A DNA stretch of 26,649 nt from Verrucomicrobia bacterium UBA4286 (GTDB lineage Bacteria > Verrucomicrobiota > Kiritimatiellia > RFP12 > UBA1067), in assembly GCA_002395905.1 (NCBI GenBank), contig DGVK01000237.1:1-26649 (forward strand). Direction: 5' to 3'. Shown here in pieces: positions 3,880 through 23,493 of this stretch; position 1 is the first letter of the stretch, and each line of letters starts with the position of its first letter. Both the position numbers and the translations under genes were made by a program. The notes below the pieces were generated by a model. It saw only the letters and a list, made by a program, of their open reading frames with translations, was not told the DNA's origin and searched no databases.

Positions 3880-6135
3880 ATGACAGGTAGAACAGGGGCG
3901 GGATTTGCGTGTGCGGCGCTTGCAATCGGTGTTGCGGTGCAGGCGGGCGCCACGCCGGCGCTTGACGCGGCCACGGTCGCGGCGCACGCTGCGGTGGCAC
4001 GCAGGGCGGCAGGCGAGTCAATGGTGCTTTTGAAGAACGACGGCGTGCTGCCGCTCGCCAGAGGCGCGAAGGTCGCGCTTCTCGGCAACTTTGCGACATA
4101 CAGGCCGGGCGGCGGCGGCTCGTCGGATGTGAAGCCTGTGAGGACCGTGGACATCCCGGCCGGGCTCGCCGAGGCGGGACTTGTGATCGACGGCTCAAGC
4201 CGCGACGTGGCGGTGTATGTCGTCTCGCGCAAATCGTCCGAGGGCGGCGACCGCCCGGACGAAACATTCGATCTTTCGCGTGAAGAGCTCGACGGGATCG
4301 CCAGGGCCAGGGCCGACGGATTCCGCCGAGTTGTAGTCGTGTTCAATTCGGGTAACGTAATCAACCTCAGCCAGCTCAAGGACGATCCGTTTGTCGGGGC
4401 GATCCTCTGGGCATGGTATCCAGGCGGTGAGGGCGGCGCAGCGGTCGGCGACGTGCTTGCGGGGGCGGTGAACCCTTCCGGGCGGCTCGCCTCGACGTTC
4501 GCGAAGCGCGTCGACGATTATTCGACGAACCCCAAGTGGCAGGAGTCGTGCTGGTACGTCCCTTATGAAGAGGACATCTTCGTGGGCTACCGTTATTTCG
4601 AGACGATCCCCGGCGCGAAGGAGAAGGTTGTATATCCTTTCGGCCACGGTCTCAGCTACACGACGTTCAATGTCGAGCCGGGCGCGGTCGAGGCCGGCGG
4701 CGAAACTGTTTCGGTTAAGGCCAGGGTCACCAACACGGGCAGGGTCGCAGGCCGTCATTCAGTCCTCTGCTACACGTCGCAGACCGGCGGCGCGGCCGAG
4801 CATCCGGCGATAGAGCTGAGGGCGTTCGCTAAGACGGGTCTTCTCGCCCCCGGCGCGAGCGAGGAGCTCGTCCTCTCGTTCGCCAGGAGCGACCTTGCGT
4901 ATTTCGACGACGAGGGCGCGAGCGGCAGCATCGGTTCATGGGTCATCGACAGAGGCGTGTATCGCGTGCTTGTCGGCGGTTCGGTGAGAGATGTCGTCGA
5001 GGCCGGGACGATAGCCTGTGAGAAGGACGTGGTTCTCTGCACGCCCGGGTTCAAGCTTCAGGCCGACCGCCTTGCGCGCCGCATGAGGGCGGACGGAACA
5101 TACTCCGTCTCGCCGGTGGCGTATCCGGGCAGCAAGAAGTCGCCGCAACGCGTCGCGGTGCGGACCAACGCGCTCGAAAAGGCCGAGATCACCCTGTTCG
5201 ACGTTGCGGACGGCAGGGCGACGCTCGACGAGTTTCTCGACCAGATGACGCTTGCGGAGATGCTGAGACTTCTTCACGGCCACCCCAAGCACGATCCTTC
5301 CGGCACGGGTTCGATCGGCGATTTCGCGAAATTCGGCGTTTCGGCCGCGCAGACATGCGACGGTCCTGCGGGCGTCAGGCGCGCGACGCCTTCAACATAC
5401 TTCCCGTGCGCCGCGCTTCTCGCGTGCGCATACGATCAGGAGCTCCTTCGCGAAATAGGCGATGTGATCGGCGCTGAAGCTGCGGAGGTCGATTTCGACA
5501 TTCTTCTCGCGCCGGGTCTCTGCATCCACCGCCATCCGCTGTGCGGACGCAACTTCGAATATTTCTCCGAGGATCCGTTTGTCGCCGGCAGATGCGCCGC
5601 TTCGTATGTCAAGGGGGTGCAGGCGAACGGCGTCGGCGCGACGGTCAAGCATTTCGCGGGCAACGGGCGCGAGGCCACCCGCAAGACAGAGCTTGACATC
5701 GTCTCGGAGCGGGCGTTCCGCGAGATACACCTGCGCGGCTTCGAGCGCGCGATGAAGGAGGGAGAGCCGTGGGCCGTCATGACGAGCTACAACGGTGTCA
5801 ACGGTTACAACAGCGGCGAGAACTACGGGCTGCTGGAAGGAATAATGCGTGGCGAGTGGGGCTACAAGGGCCTTGCAATGACCGACTGGCACACAACAGT
5901 GCCCATGTGGCGCGAGATCGGCGCGGGAAATGATGTGAAGATGCCCGGCGAGGCAACCGACACAACGTGCCACTTCGTGAAGGAAGGCGACGGTGTAAAG
6001 GAGGCCGAGCGCGCCTACAAGCGCGGCTACCTCTCGGTGGAAATGGTGCGCCGCAGCGCGAAGAGGGTGTGCGAGCTGGTCATGAAGACGCGCCGCTTCG
6101 CCCGCGAGCGAGCCGTGGCGGCAGGCGGACGGTGA
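3880..6135 (+). CDS. secreted GH3 glycosidase with permuted domain order
   Basis: This is a glycoside hydrolase family 3 enzyme of 751 residues, likely a beta-glucosidase or beta-xylosidase type. An N-terminal signal peptide ends near QAGA-TPA (residues 21-27). The order of parts is inverted relative to most GH3 proteins. The C-terminal-type alpha/beta sandwich comes first (about 35-250; SMVLLKNDGVLPL, YPGGEGGAAVGDVL). The fibronectin-III-like domain follows (about 260-365, after YPFGHGLSYTTF at 252-261). The TIM barrel is last (about 448-700). By homology the nucleophile is Asp669 in MTDWH, and the acid/base is Glu121 in SSEGGDR. KHF (590-592) and GRNFEYFSEDPF are also family marks. Permuted GH3 enzymes are known from gut and rumen bacteria such as Ruminococcus albus. 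Substrate cannot be read from sequence. A ribosome binding site (AAGGAAAGGA) lies in the end of the preceding gene, 2 nt away. Confidence 0.93.
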   Translation: MTGRTGAGFACAALAIGVAVQAGATPALDAATVAAHAAVARRAAGESMVLLKNDGVLPLARGAKVALLGNFATYRPGGGGSSDVKPVRTVDIPAGLAEAGLVIDGSSRDVAVYVVSRKSSEGGDRPDETFDLSREELDGIARARADGFRRVVVVFNSGNVINLSQLKDDPFVGAILWAWYPGGEGGAAVGDVLAGAVNPSGRLASTFAKRVDDYSTNPKWQESCWYVPYEEDIFVGYRYFETIPGAKEKVVYPFGHGLSYTTFNVEPGAVEAGGETVSVKARVTNTGRVAGRHSVLCYTSQTGGAAEHPAIELRAFAKTGLLAPGASEELVLSFARSDLAYFDDEGASGSIGSWVIDRGVYRVLVGGSVRDVVEAGTIACEKDVVLCTPGFKLQADRLARRMRADGTYSVSPVAYPGSKKSPQRVAVRTNALEKAEITLFDVADGRATLDEFLDQMTLAEMLRLLHGHPKHDPSGTGSIGDFAKFGVSAAQTCDGPAGVRRATPSTYFPCAALLACAYDQELLREIGDVIGAEAAEVDFDILLAPGLCIHRHPLCGRNFEYFSEDPFVAGRCAASYVKGVQANGVGATVKHFAGNGREATRKTELDIVSERAFREIHLRGFERAMKEGEPWAVMTSYNGVNGYNSGENYGLLEGIMRGEWGYKGLAMTDWHTTVPMWREIGAGNDVKMPGEATDTTCHFVKEGDGVKEAERAYKRGYLSVEMVRRSAKRVCELVMKTRRFARERAVAAGGR

Positions 6136-20197: not shown

Positions 20198-21765
20198 AGC
20201 GTGGTGGATCGTCCGGCGGCGGAATGCTCCGCAACGCGTTCACCGTAGGCTCTTTCACGGCGCTCTCCAGAGTTCTCGGTCTGGTGAGGGAGATGCTCCA
20301 GTCGCGGCTTATCGGCGCAGGTGTCGAGCAGAGCGCTTTCACGATGGCTTTCGCCATACCGAACATGGCGCGCAAACTTTTCGGCGAAGGCGCGCTCACC
20401 GCCGCATTTGTGCCGGTGTTCAAAGCGTCCGTCGAGACTGAGTCTCTTGAGAGGGCCGCACGGCTCGCTCGAAGCGTTATGACAATGGTGCTCCTTATGC
20501 TTGGCGCGTTTGTCATTCTTTCATCTGGCGTGCTCGGGCTTCTGGAAGGATTCGGAACGGCTGTCGGTGTCGAGGATCGGGCGCGCTTTTCTCTTACGCT
20601 CGGTCTTGTGCGGACGCTTCTGCCCTATATGCTTTTCATCTGCGGTGCGGCGTTCGGCATGGGCGTTCTCAATTCTCTAGGCAGGTTCAAGGCGTCAAGT
20701 TTCATGCCCTGCCTCTTGAACATATGCTGGATAGGCGCTCTCGCCTGGATGATGTTCTTCCCCGAGCTGACCCTGACCCAGCGTATACGCCGCGTCGCCG
20801 TGACAATTCTGGCGGCCGGCGCGCTCCAGATGGCTTTTCTCATGTGGCGCATGCATGCCGCAGGCGTGACGCCCAGTCTCTCGTTCAGAGGCTGGCGCGA
20901 TGAAAAAGTGCGCATCGTATGGCGCAACCTCGGCGTGGCGGCGCTTGGCGCCGGTGCCGTCCAGCTCAACTATCTTCTAGACCAGCTTCTGGCATACTGC
21001 GCCAGCCCGTGGGCCGCCGGGGTCATAGGCTATGCCGAGCGCCTTATGGATCTGCCGCTCGGAATCGTCGGCGTGGCGTTCGGCACGGTTCTCCTGCCTG
21101 CATTCTCCGGTCTTTTCGCCAAGGGCGACGTCGATGGAGCAAGAGCGACTCTGAGATCGTCGGTGCAGTCTCTGATGTTTGTCATGCTGCCTTCCGCCGC
21201 CGGACTGTTCGTTCTTGCGCCCGAGGTGACAGGCGTCGTCTACCAGGGCGGGGCGTTCGGCGGCGAGGCGACGACGCGCGTCGCGCGCGCTCTTGCCGTG
21301 TACTCCCTCGGCCTCGGATTTTTCGGTCTTTTAAAGTCTCTTGTGCCGTGGTTCCAGGCGCAGAACGACATGAAGACGCCGCTCAAGGTTTCGCTGATCA
21401 CCGTAGTCCTCAACGCCGCACTGAACATCATGGCCGTGCTCCTTCTGCCGGAGGAGTGGCGTCATGTCGGTCTTGCCGCGTCCACGGTGGTCTGCGCGGC
21501 TGCGGGATGCGCGCTTCTGGCGGCGTTCGCCCGCAAAAAGAACGGTTCGCTGGGACTCGGCCCGTCTGTCGGCTCTGTCGCCGCGATGCTTGCCGCATCG
21601 CTTGCAATGGCGGCGGTGCTTGCGGCCGTCCGCCCGATTGTGGCGCCTTGGAACTCTGTAGCCGCGCTCGCCGTTCTTGTCGCGACCGGAATGCTTGTAT
21701 ACGCGCTTGCCGCGCTTGCTCTGTTTAGAGGGCGCGTTAAAACCTTCCTCCGCCGCCGTCCTTGA
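20194..21765 (+). CDS. murJ: lipid II flippase MurJ
   Basis: MurJ moves lipid II across the inner membrane and belongs to the MVF/MATE-like MOP superfamily. The 523-residue protein has about 14 hydrophobic segments. N-terminal marks are RNAFTVGSFTALSRVLGLVREML and AFTMAFAIPNMARKLFGEGALTAAFVPVF, the latter being the MurJ R-x-LFxEGAFxxAFVPV signature. It also has LMDLPLGIVGVAFGTVLLPAFSG. ATG 20194 is chosen because it forms a 4-nt overlap with the lpxK stop and leads into MKRGG; AGGAG lies 12 nt upstream. An earlier ATG at 20170 has no ribosome binding site. It ends the envelope cluster. Confidence 0.95.
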   Translation: MKRGGSSGGGMLRNAFTVGSFTALSRVLGLVREMLQSRLIGAGVEQSAFTMAFAIPNMARKLFGEGALTAAFVPVFKASVETESLERAARLARSVMTMVLLMLGAFVILSSGVLGLLEGFGTAVGVEDRARFSLTLGLVRTLLPYMLFICGAAFGMGVLNSLGRFKASSFMPCLLNICWIGALAWMMFFPELTLTQRIRRVAVTILAAGALQMAFLMWRMHAAGVTPSLSFRGWRDEKVRIVWRNLGVAALGAGAVQLNYLLDQLLAYCASPWAAGVIGYAERLMDLPLGIVGVAFGTVLLPAFSGLFAKGDVDGARATLRSSVQSLMFVMLPSAAGLFVLAPEVTGVVYQGGAFGGEATTRVARALAVYSLGLGFFGLLKSLVPWFQAQNDMKTPLKVSLITVVLNAALNIMAVLLLPEEWRHVGLAASTVVCAAAGCALLAAFARKKNGSLGLGPSVGSVAAMLAASLAMAAVLAAVRPIVAPWNSVAALAVLVATGMLVYALAALALFRGRVKTFLRRRP

Positions 21766-21820
21766 AACGGCCTGCGGACATCTTGGCGAAGATTTGAAAA
21801 CTACGCGACAATCGCCTTTC

Positions 21821-21843
21821 CGCCCTTGCCTTGCGCAAGGGCG
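21821..21843 (+). other. 9-bp hairpin after murJ overlapping a promoter
   Basis: CGCCCTTGC (21821-21829) pairs exactly with GCAAGGGCG (21835-21843) around a 5-nt loop. An alternative 12-nt palindrome, CCTTGCGCAAGG, lies inside it. No T-tract follows, so it is a weak terminator at best. It contains the likely -35 region of the promoter at 21826-21855 and could be a protein-binding site. Confidence 0.55.
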
Positions 21844-21855
21844 ATTTGCTATAAT
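21826..21855 (+). promoter_or_regulatory. extended -10 promoter of the structured RNA
   Basis: TGCTATAAT (21847-21855) is a perfect TGnTATAAT. TTGCCT (21826-21831) lies 18 nt upstream as a four-of-six -35. The expected start is about 21862. It transcribes the structured region and perhaps the SUMF1-fold gene beyond. Confidence 0.7.
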
Positions 21856-21861
21856 GTGTGC

Positions 21862-22106
21862 GTTAGGTTGAGAAAGGCGGCGGGTGCCGTCATGATGCCG
21901 AGCGCTAGATTTCCCGCGTGGCAGGGGTGAAGAAAAGTAACCAACCACCGCGTTTGGGCCGCGTCAGGTGAAAGCTTGAGAACCTATCACGCAGAGACGC
22001 AACGAAAAGGACACTGCCTGTCCGTGCAGTATCGCCTCATCGGTTGTATCTCTTTAGGTATTCTCAAGCACCTCACCTGATGCATCGGAGGAGGTGTCTA
22101 TTTTTT
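21862..22106 (+). ncRNA. structured RNA, about 245 nt, unknown family (ncRNA or attenuator leader)
   Basis: The region between a promoter and an intrinsic terminator folds into a long rod. Stem 1 pairs 21961-21971 with 22073-22083 (11 bp, one G-U). Stem 2 pairs 21974-21982 with 22061-22069 (9 bp, perfect). Short stems follow: 21983-21986 with 22055-22058, AGAGA 21993-21997 with 22049-22053, and 21999-22003 with 22043-22047. The tip has a GGACA/TGTCC hairpin (22009-22023) competing with ACTGC/GCAGT. The 5' 100 nt can close by GGTTG/CAACC and GCGGG/CCCGC. Stem 1 shares bases with the terminator hairpin, which is typical of attenuators. It lacks the hallmark motifs of tmRNA, SRP RNA, RNase P RNA and the TPP, cobalamin, SAM-I, c-di-GMP and FMN riboswitches. 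The gene beyond starts 77 nt after the terminator. Start and end are inferred. Confidence 0.6.
22069..22106 (+). terminator. intrinsic terminator
   Basis: CACCTC (22069-22074) pairs with GAGGTG (22091-22096). The inner part adds CC/GG and GA/TC pairs around a TGCA loop. A T-rich tail, TCTATTTTTT (22097-22106), follows. The left arm overlaps the 3' arm of the long RNA stem, so the two folds exclude each other. Confidence 0.8.
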
Positions 22107-22182
22107 CGTACTACTTCCGATATCTGGCAAGGCGGTCGCTGTAGGAAGAGTAGATTTTGAACAAACCGAAAGGAAACGAAAG

Positions 22183-23493
22183 ATGAACATGAAAAAGATG
22201 ATGATGGCGCTGGCGGCGGGTTCGCTGGCGATCACGGCACAGGCGCTTACGCTGTCTGTCAAAGACGTTAAGATCGCCCAGCGCTATCCGTGGAACGGGC
22301 TGGTCGATATCGACTACACGGTCGTGTGCGACGAGCCGGCGACGAACATATGGGTCTATCCCGTGGGATACGATGCGGACTTCAACGTCTCGGTGGCCCC
22401 GCGCACGCTTGAGGGCGACGGCGTGAACGGCGCGCCGGTGACCGTGGGAGCGGAGGGCGAGAAGACGTTCCGCATGACGTGGAACATGGCCGCCGACATG
22501 CCCGCCAACTACAACCGGGCAAAATTCTCGATGAAGATGTACGCCTACGCCGGTGCCGCGCCGTACATGGTGATCGACCTTTCCGCCGGCGCAAATGCCG
22601 AGAAGTACGAGGTGAGTTACCTGAGCGAGATGCCCGATACCGAATGGCCGGTTGAATATAAGACCACGAAGCTGGTGTTGAAGCTTGTATTGCCTGGTAC
22701 GTTTACGATGGGCAGCCCAGCAGAGGAGGTGGGGCACGATTATGCTGGAACAGGTTATGAAACTCAGCACAAGGTGACGCTCACGCAGTCGTTCTACATG
22801 GGCGTGTTCGAACTCACCCAGCAGCAGTACAATCTTGTGATGGGTTCTAATCCATCGTCTTATAAAGGTGATTCGCGTCCTGTGGAGGGAGTTTCTTACA
22901 ATGCCATCCGCGGCTCCACGCTCGGCGCGGCATGGCCAAGTCATCGGCAGGTGGACGCTACATCGTTTATGGGTAAACTTCGTGCGCGCACGGGCTTGAC
23001 CTTTGATCTCCCCACCGAGGCGCAGTGGGAATACACCTGTCGTGCAGGTACTGGTTCTGCTCTCAATAATGGATTGAACATTACAAATACCAATCGAAGT
23101 GTTCAATTGAATGATGTTGCACGTTATAATGGTAATTTGTCTGATGGCAGGGGGGGATATTCAGAACATACAATTGTTGGTTCTTACAAATCGAACGCAT
23201 GGGGATTTTATGACATGCATGGTAATGTGTCAGAGTGGTGTCTAGATTGGTTTCAGGGGAATTTGACGAGTTCTCCGACAACCGAGCCTAAAGGGCCCAG
23301 TTCGGGATCATATCGTTTGGTACGAGGAGGTGGATGGTTCTCTAATAACCCATATGAAGGTAATGCTGTTGGCCAGAGGAGTGCTTGTAGGTGGCAATAT
23401 TATTCTGGAAATTGGTTGTATAATCCAAATCATAGGCCTTCCGATGGCAATCAAGGACGGGGTTTCCGCGTGTGCTGCCTCCCCGCAGAGTGA
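22183..23493 (+). CDS. secreted SUMF1/C-type-lectin-fold protein
   Basis: The 436-residue protein has a signal peptide (MNMKKMMMALAAGSLAITAQA). A beta-rich N-terminal domain follows (about 22-160: LTLSVKDVKIAQRYPWNGLVDIDYTV). The SUMF1 (FGE-sulfatase) domain spans about 165-432, with PGTFTMGSP, FYMGVFELTQQQYNLVMG, RPVEGVSYN, FDLPTEAQWEYTCRAGT, GFYDMHGNVSEWCLDWF, LVRGGGW and GRGFRVC. It lacks the paired active cysteines of true formylglycine-generating enzymes, so a binding role is more likely than catalysis. C-type-lectin folds of this type are frequent targets of diversity-generating retroelements; the stretch RGGGWFSNN to GFRVC is where a variable region would lie. The first 500 nt are GC-rich, and about 22690-23460 is clearly AT-richer than all neighbours. 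AGGA lies 8 nt before the ATG. Likely cell-surface or periplasmic. Confidence 0.88.
   Translation: MNMKKMMMALAAGSLAITAQALTLSVKDVKIAQRYPWNGLVDIDYTVVCDEPATNIWVYPVGYDADFNVSVAPRTLEGDGVNGAPVTVGAEGEKTFRMTWNMAADMPANYNRAKFSMKMYAYAGAAPYMVIDLSAGANAEKYEVSYLSEMPDTEWPVEYKTTKLVLKLVLPGTFTMGSPAEEVGHDYAGTGYETQHKVTLTQSFYMGVFELTQQQYNLVMGSNPSSYKGDSRPVEGVSYNAIRGSTLGAAWPSHRQVDATSFMGKLRARTGLTFDLPTEAQWEYTCRAGTGSALNNGLNITNTNRSVQLNDVARYNGNLSDGRGGYSEHTIVGSYKSNAWGFYDMHGNVSEWCLDWFQGNLTSSPTTEPKGPSSGSYRLVRGGGWFSNNPYEGNAVGQRSACRWQYYSGNWLYNPNHRPSDGNQGRGFRVCCLPAE

Follow-up and report, generated by a model that had tools for sequence, protein, structure and literature searches.

The stretch of DNA analyzed here (the window) comprises 26,649 nucleotides of contig DGVK01000237.1 from Verrucomicrobia bacterium UBA4286, and the region of interest lies between murJ and a gene at 22183–23493 whose product has an FGE-sulfatase (SUMF1) domain (PF03781, E=6.1e-31) and a start that, by eye, resembles a signal peptide. 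The leader parts mapped below and the gene behind them are on the forward strand. A pattern scan placed a predicted promoter at 21826–21855 (TTGCCT-18-TATAAT, with TG before the -10 element, i.e., an extended -10); the 601 bases scanned contained two sites resembling promoters, compared with a shuffled mean of 0.3, and TGnTATAAT recurs as an exact match in 29 of 40 copies of the RNA from the same genus. A 9-pair hairpin at 21821–21843, between murJ and the leader and listed by the pattern scan only, overlaps the promoter -35. Downstream, the segment 21862–22106 has a predicted folding energy of -90.7 kcal/mol (z=-2.89), equaled by none of 200 shuffled sequences, and an 11-bp closing stem is present at 21961–21971 with 22073–22083. 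The preliminary description of this DNA had proposed a TGnTATAAT promoter followed by RNA able to form a long rod; both proposals held, the rod also through the covariation described below.

The leader opens with a 5' domain (21862–21958) of variable hairpins together with conserved TAGATTTCCCGCG and CCGCG..TGGG, assessed by permutation test. The rod that follows consists of the helices P1a:P1b (21961–21970 with 22074–22083), P2a:P2b (21974–21981 with 22062–22069), and P3a:P3b (21993–22001 with 22045–22053), the arms P2b and P3b being assigned by covariation, and an apical pseudoknot at 22009–22030 (GGAC 22009–22012 with GTCC 22020–22023; ACTGC 22013–22017 with GCAGT 22026–22030). AGGT at 22056–22059 has a potential partner in ACCT at 22070–22073, within the terminator loop (99.4% of cells paired). 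The terminator, placed by covariation and direct pair count, has a 5' arm at 22033–22050 that overlaps P3b and a 3' arm at 22079–22096 whose first bases (22079–22083) are also part of P1b; the two arms enclose a 28-nt loop and are followed by the U-tract TCTATTTTTT at 22097–22106, with 8 T in 10 in the window copy. A hairpin behind the rod (22084–22121; ATCGGA 22084–22089 with TCCGAT 22116–22121, alignment columns 302–306 with 341–345) can coexist with the rod, but not with the terminator.

A DNA search returned copies, complete or partial, from the same genus and only weak matches outside it (best E=0.0018). An iterated profile over the window plus 43 loci gave the working set; 40 of its copies went into alignment A2, which was built from sequence alone, and alignment A5, likewise 40 copies aligned on sequence alone, is the basis of the rod statistics. 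With a covariance model built on the rod (R1), a second, more distant population of the RNA came to light, and a covariance model from 20 members (R2) found it at E≤1e-5 in 115 of 161 genomes from the order; a single genome has as many as 16 matches, and the per-genome counts sum to 545, possible antisense duplicates included. In a sample of the phylum, the RNA was present in 54 of 387 genomes, 8 of those in other classes; the genome to which the window belongs contains seven at E≤0.01. Among named genomes, a pattern scan gave 46 matching stretches, 39 of which were confirmed by R2 at E≤1e-5; six of the 7 unconfirmed matches were in clearly unrelated bacteria, and one was in a genome with confirmed copies. 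The record titles of the matching stretches name Kiritimatiellae, Verrucomicrobia, Lentisphaerae, or uncultured bacterium, and several refer to the ruminant gut. Three pattern matches on viral contigs were taken as chance because none was confirmed by R2 at E≤1e-5.

In alignment A5, 94.5% of cells in the rod and apical pseudoknot are paired, and 18 of 36 rod pairs have changed on both sides. The covariation score of the rod was 0.362 compared with 0.145 ± 0.008 for shuffled alignments (0/500 reached the observed value), slid versions of the rod scored 0.05 to 0.08, and seven of the top eight column pairs by mutual information are rod pairs. Within the apical pseudoknot, 82.4% of cells in the first helix and 98.5% in the second are paired, with changes on both sides at 3 of the 4 pairs of the first helix; one pair between AGGT and ACCT has also changed on both sides. 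Covariation in related genomes had been set beforehand as the test for a functional RNA, and the rod exceeded every shuffle. The conserved fold extends beyond the expression platform, as is expected of a riboswitch.

The arms of P1 and P3 are also complementary in a second combination: P1a with P3a, forming a local hairpin, and P3b with P1b, which is the terminator. Although they belong to separate helices in the rod, GCGTC, the first five bases of P1a, is complementary to GACGC of P3a (21996–22000) in 98.5% of cells, with P2a in the loop of the resulting hairpin. Because these five pairs are nearly invariant within the genus, they provide little evidence alone. In the alignment, the next five bases of P1a, its variable part, pair locally in just 54.1% of cells. 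Taking the local structure as a whole, the fraction of cells paired and the covariation score beat all shuffles (0/500); its pairs with changes on both sides and its pair types were no better than shuffled (382/500 and 306/500 shuffles as high, respectively). When alignment columns were dispensed with, the variable P1a bases behind GCGTC covaried in the genus with P1b (z about 10), the local segment came second (best z 4.4), and other segments reached at most 2.2. Across 80 members, the local hairpin gave a permutation z of 6.7 (0/2000), and two control segments gave -0.6 and -1.6; the members are the best-scoring copies, some of them closely related, and permutation leaves this relatedness in place, a point that the control segments answer only in part. 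In relatives, the base of the local hairpin has changed on both sides yet remains paired, as in GTCGTC:GACGAC (L153) and GGCTC:GAGCC (L155).

Covariation of the terminator stem was strong over the 80 members (z=15.8, 0/2000 permutations) and weak within the genus, where 9/2000 permutations attained the observed value because the stem hardly varies there. Under a rule allowing one mismatch, the median length in genus copies was 17 bp, with at least 13 bp in 37 of 40; in the wider set, 65 of 80 members have a stem of 10 bp or more and 52 have one of 13 bp or more, leaving 15 below 10 bp. The window copy scores just 8 bp under that rule; by direct count 15 of its 18 positions pair, i.e., there are three mismatches. 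The ten bases behind the stem contain on average 5.2 T in the 40 genus copies and 5.35 T in the 80 wider members, in which T makes up 21% overall; at least five T were present in 55 of 80 members, and some genus copies have few (2 of 10 in L029, L038, and L060). A terminator with a U-tract that excludes an upstream helix, as expected of an attenuator, is the arrangement found, with the 15 weak stems as the exceptions. That a stem and a terminator exclude each other had been proposed before, and this part of the proposal was confirmed; the terminator had been placed in a short hairpin at 22069–22096, which proved to be merely part of the conserved stem 22033–22050:22079–22096. The pattern scan, confined to loops of 3–8 nt, listed neither that hairpin nor the terminator with its 28-nt loop.

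When the two states were forced on 21959–22106, the rod gave -56.4 kcal/mol and the local hairpin plus terminator -39.1 kcal/mol, so the rod is favored by 17 kcal/mol in the window copy; over 40 copies, the mean advantage was 12.5 kcal/mol (sd 10). The order was reversed in four of the 40 (L041, L042, L043, and L067), perhaps due to misaligned forced columns. Since the predicted energies favor the rod, the choice to terminate is likely to be made co-transcriptionally. In the model we propose, the leader would be transcribed from its own predicted promoter, and the rod (P1a:P1b, P2a:P2b, P3a:P3b, and the apical pseudoknot) would lock up the terminator arms, allowing polymerase to continue into the gene. 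In the other state, local pairing of P1a with P3a would free P3b and P1b to form the long terminator stem ahead of the U-tract, and transcription would stop. The local hairpin may be able to form first, presenting P2a in its loop as a possible landing site for P2b, an order of events that we infer. The terminator would thus stop polymerase, the rod would be the ON state, and a signal acting at the conserved internal loops around P2 would tip the balance. This paired exchange of four arms is unusual and well supported by comparison; it would make a clear bistable design, and it specifies the exact mutations that should separate the two states.

Sequences on either side of the rod are also structured. 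Four helices of the 5' domain covary among 40 copies (permutation z = 8.6, 5.3, 3.7, and 2.5; the weakest was matched by 13/2000 permutations), and distant copies mostly have, by eye, one small hairpin in place of the genus-type 5' domain. Matches to the promoter and 5' domain alone (the first 80–105 nt) occur at L044:4585–4683, L046:4304–4399, and L037:3600–3678, ∼1.8 kb upstream of a full copy, and R2 at E≤0.001 found no rod at these three sites. In a copy at L058:6104–6278, the middle rod is missing between the 5' domain and the 3' end; this copy precedes a 1322-aa ORF.

Fifty of the 80 members have a usable start, and in these a conserved segment behind the terminator is predicted to pair with the ribosome-binding region (z=6.5; control -0.2). 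This pairing, which the attenuator model does not fully explain, points to a possible additional control of translation. Control might instead be mainly translational, with the upstream folds regulating this pairing; the same pairing is what speaks for such a scheme, which leaves the long conserved terminator stem and T-rich tract unexplained and which we regard as unlikely. The segment was also considered as a leader peptide and rejected because its frame and start codon are, by eye, inconstant; RNA pairing explains its conservation. Mutually exclusive stems ahead of a terminator are typical of ribosome-mediated attenuators, and the leader shares this layout; moreover, 18 of 40 copies contain within it an ORF of at least 8 codons with an RBS-like stretch. 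A search for a conserved short ORF in these 40 leaders found none: they have no common start, the best ATG column holding 7 of 40, any start codon 13 of 40, and an RBS plus start 3 of 40, and attenuation by ribosomes translating a leader peptide is accordingly highly improbable.

To score the genes behind the RNA, we used copies flanked on each side by 700 nt or more and counted co-directional ORFs, 100 aa or longer, whose start has an RBS and lies no more than 180 nt away. Such an ORF follows 46 of 71 wider copies compared with 1 of 71 when mirrored, and 27 of 36 genus copies compared with 0 of 36, and the RNA is in this respect placed as an attenuator should be, directly upstream of a co-directional gene; the median distance from the end of the model to the chosen start codon is 75 nt. 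This strong bias to close co-directional genes bears on the alternative of a free sRNA, raised in the preliminary description; such an RNA would act in trans and have its 3' end at the terminator, the gene behind it being incidental. Its own predicted promoter and terminator and the presence of several copies per genome would suit a free RNA, but neither the gene bias nor the building of alternative folds into the terminator itself would be expected, and we consider it very unlikely as the main role. The terminated leader could nevertheless act in trans as a by-product.

The first genes, taken in two sets of 39 and 68, include BspA-type LRR proteins (4/39 and 9/68), FRG (4/39 and 1/68), FGE-sulfatase (3/39 and 1/68), papain-type proteases (1/39 and 4/68), and EcoRI-type methylases (PF13651, 2/68). 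Two genes directly behind distant copies, L163:2830–3831 and L166:1302–2453, resemble EcoRI-type adenine methylases by eye. The first genes are enriched for signal-peptide-like starts: a crude test was positive for 21 of 39 and 36 of 68 compared with 4 of the 45 control genes that had a start codon. PADLOC matches were found among the downstream genes and also among the control genes before the RNA, and the cut-offs were unequal (0.001 in two downstream searches; 1e-10 in another downstream search and the control search); a role as a defense-island element was set aside because, for both reasons, an enrichment for defense is unsupported. The downstream genes suggest no particular ligand.

No family in Rfam 15 (4227 families) matched the window at the gathering threshold, nor did any match 17 relatives apart from one tRNA elsewhere in L164. 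A permissive search of 21700–22250 gave two sub-threshold matches alone (E=4.6 and 8.5), and a permissive scan of the relatives gave sub-threshold matches alone, all outside the RNA. The earlier statement that no known family is recognizable here, together with the Rfam comparison it called for, is in agreement with these results. A candidate 6S RNA lies at L189:1186–1334 (38.8 bits compared with a gathering threshold of 46.4), ∼2.7 kb from a copy of the RNA. Literature searches on RNAs of Kiritimatiellota, Verrucomicrobia, and Lentisphaerae, on leader attenuation, and on strand exchange, with preprints and most subscription papers outside their range, gave no description of this RNA among the matches listed, and the taxon names searched are absent from the main texts of PMC11109978 and PMC8632094.

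Antitermination by LoaP, RfaH, and ANTAR proteins acts on leader RNAs with a terminator and an antiterminator, as here, whereas the present RNA differs in its greater size and its four exchanging arms. A protein of this kind (a NusG paralogue of the LoaP/RfaH/UpxY type, an ANTAR protein, or another RNA-binding protein) could stabilize one of the folds: the window's genome has a second NusG-domain gene (G000:C83:1266–1493), and several target genes are very long. A second NusG gene does not, however, accompany the RNA in every genome rich in it; G078 and G073, with 10 copies each, have a single NusG match, in incomplete assemblies, and a search that had no positive control gave no ANTAR match. 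We consider a protein-dependent antiterminator unlikely. About half of the genomes of the genus have at least two NusG-domain genes, whereas a single one was found in those f3 and f4 genomes that have any match.

Further parallels come from riboswitches and other conserved RNA motifs. In strand-exchange transcriptional riboswitches such as the ZMP riboswitch, a pseudoknotted fold competes with an invading intrinsic terminator, and read-through results when the fold is kept (reviewed in PMC10907184). The RNA described here likewise opposes a pseudoknotted conserved fold to an intrinsic terminator that invades one helix, but two helices exchange simultaneously through four mutually complementary arms, and Rfam shows no relation. 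For the crcB and pfl motifs, predicted terminators are reported to extend over the 3' portion of the conserved RNA, and the associated genes are for ion transport, repair, or purine and folate synthesis (PMC2864571). The terminator overlaps the 3' part here too, and by this parallel keeping the conserved fold should raise expression; unlike those motifs, this RNA has no Rfam match to either, and its downstream genes often encode exported proteins. PMC2864571 also lists the Acido-Lenti-1 RNA (RF01687), a candidate structured RNA from Lentisphaerae that is marked as not cis-regulatory; the window had no RF01687 match in the Rfam scans.

Taken together, we propose, with a probability of roughly 80%, that the RNA belongs to an undescribed family and acts in cis as a transcription attenuator, possibly as an orphan riboswitch. 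Comparison among copies shows both predicted pairings, the T-rich tract, and the place before genes, and the suggestion that this is the layout of a riboswitch or attenuator is strengthened by comparative evidence for both alternative folds and by the position ahead of co-directional genes. The family is widespread in one order, present in multiple copies, and located before accessory genes for exported repeat proteins, cysteine proteases, and some restriction systems. Few regulatory RNAs have, to our knowledge, been described from PVC bacteria. Riboswitches mostly serve metabolism. More tentatively, and with rather less than even odds, the RNA may represent an orphan riboswitch class of the PVC group whose four arms swap in pairs, through which a shared signal gates genes for exported proteins and defense, with the ribosome-binding site as a second lock. 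If so, the signal might be a nucleotide messenger or a cue of envelope or phage stress, and exported proteins throughout the genome, together with some restriction and defense operons, would be gated by up to 16 copies per genome.

Copies may lie near one another in a genome. In G255, two are present in one locus ∼540 nt apart (L182:3534–3653 and 4073–4193), and in G320, L185 and L186 have identical printed sequence, are 12.8 kb apart, and each precede a 1282-aa ORF.
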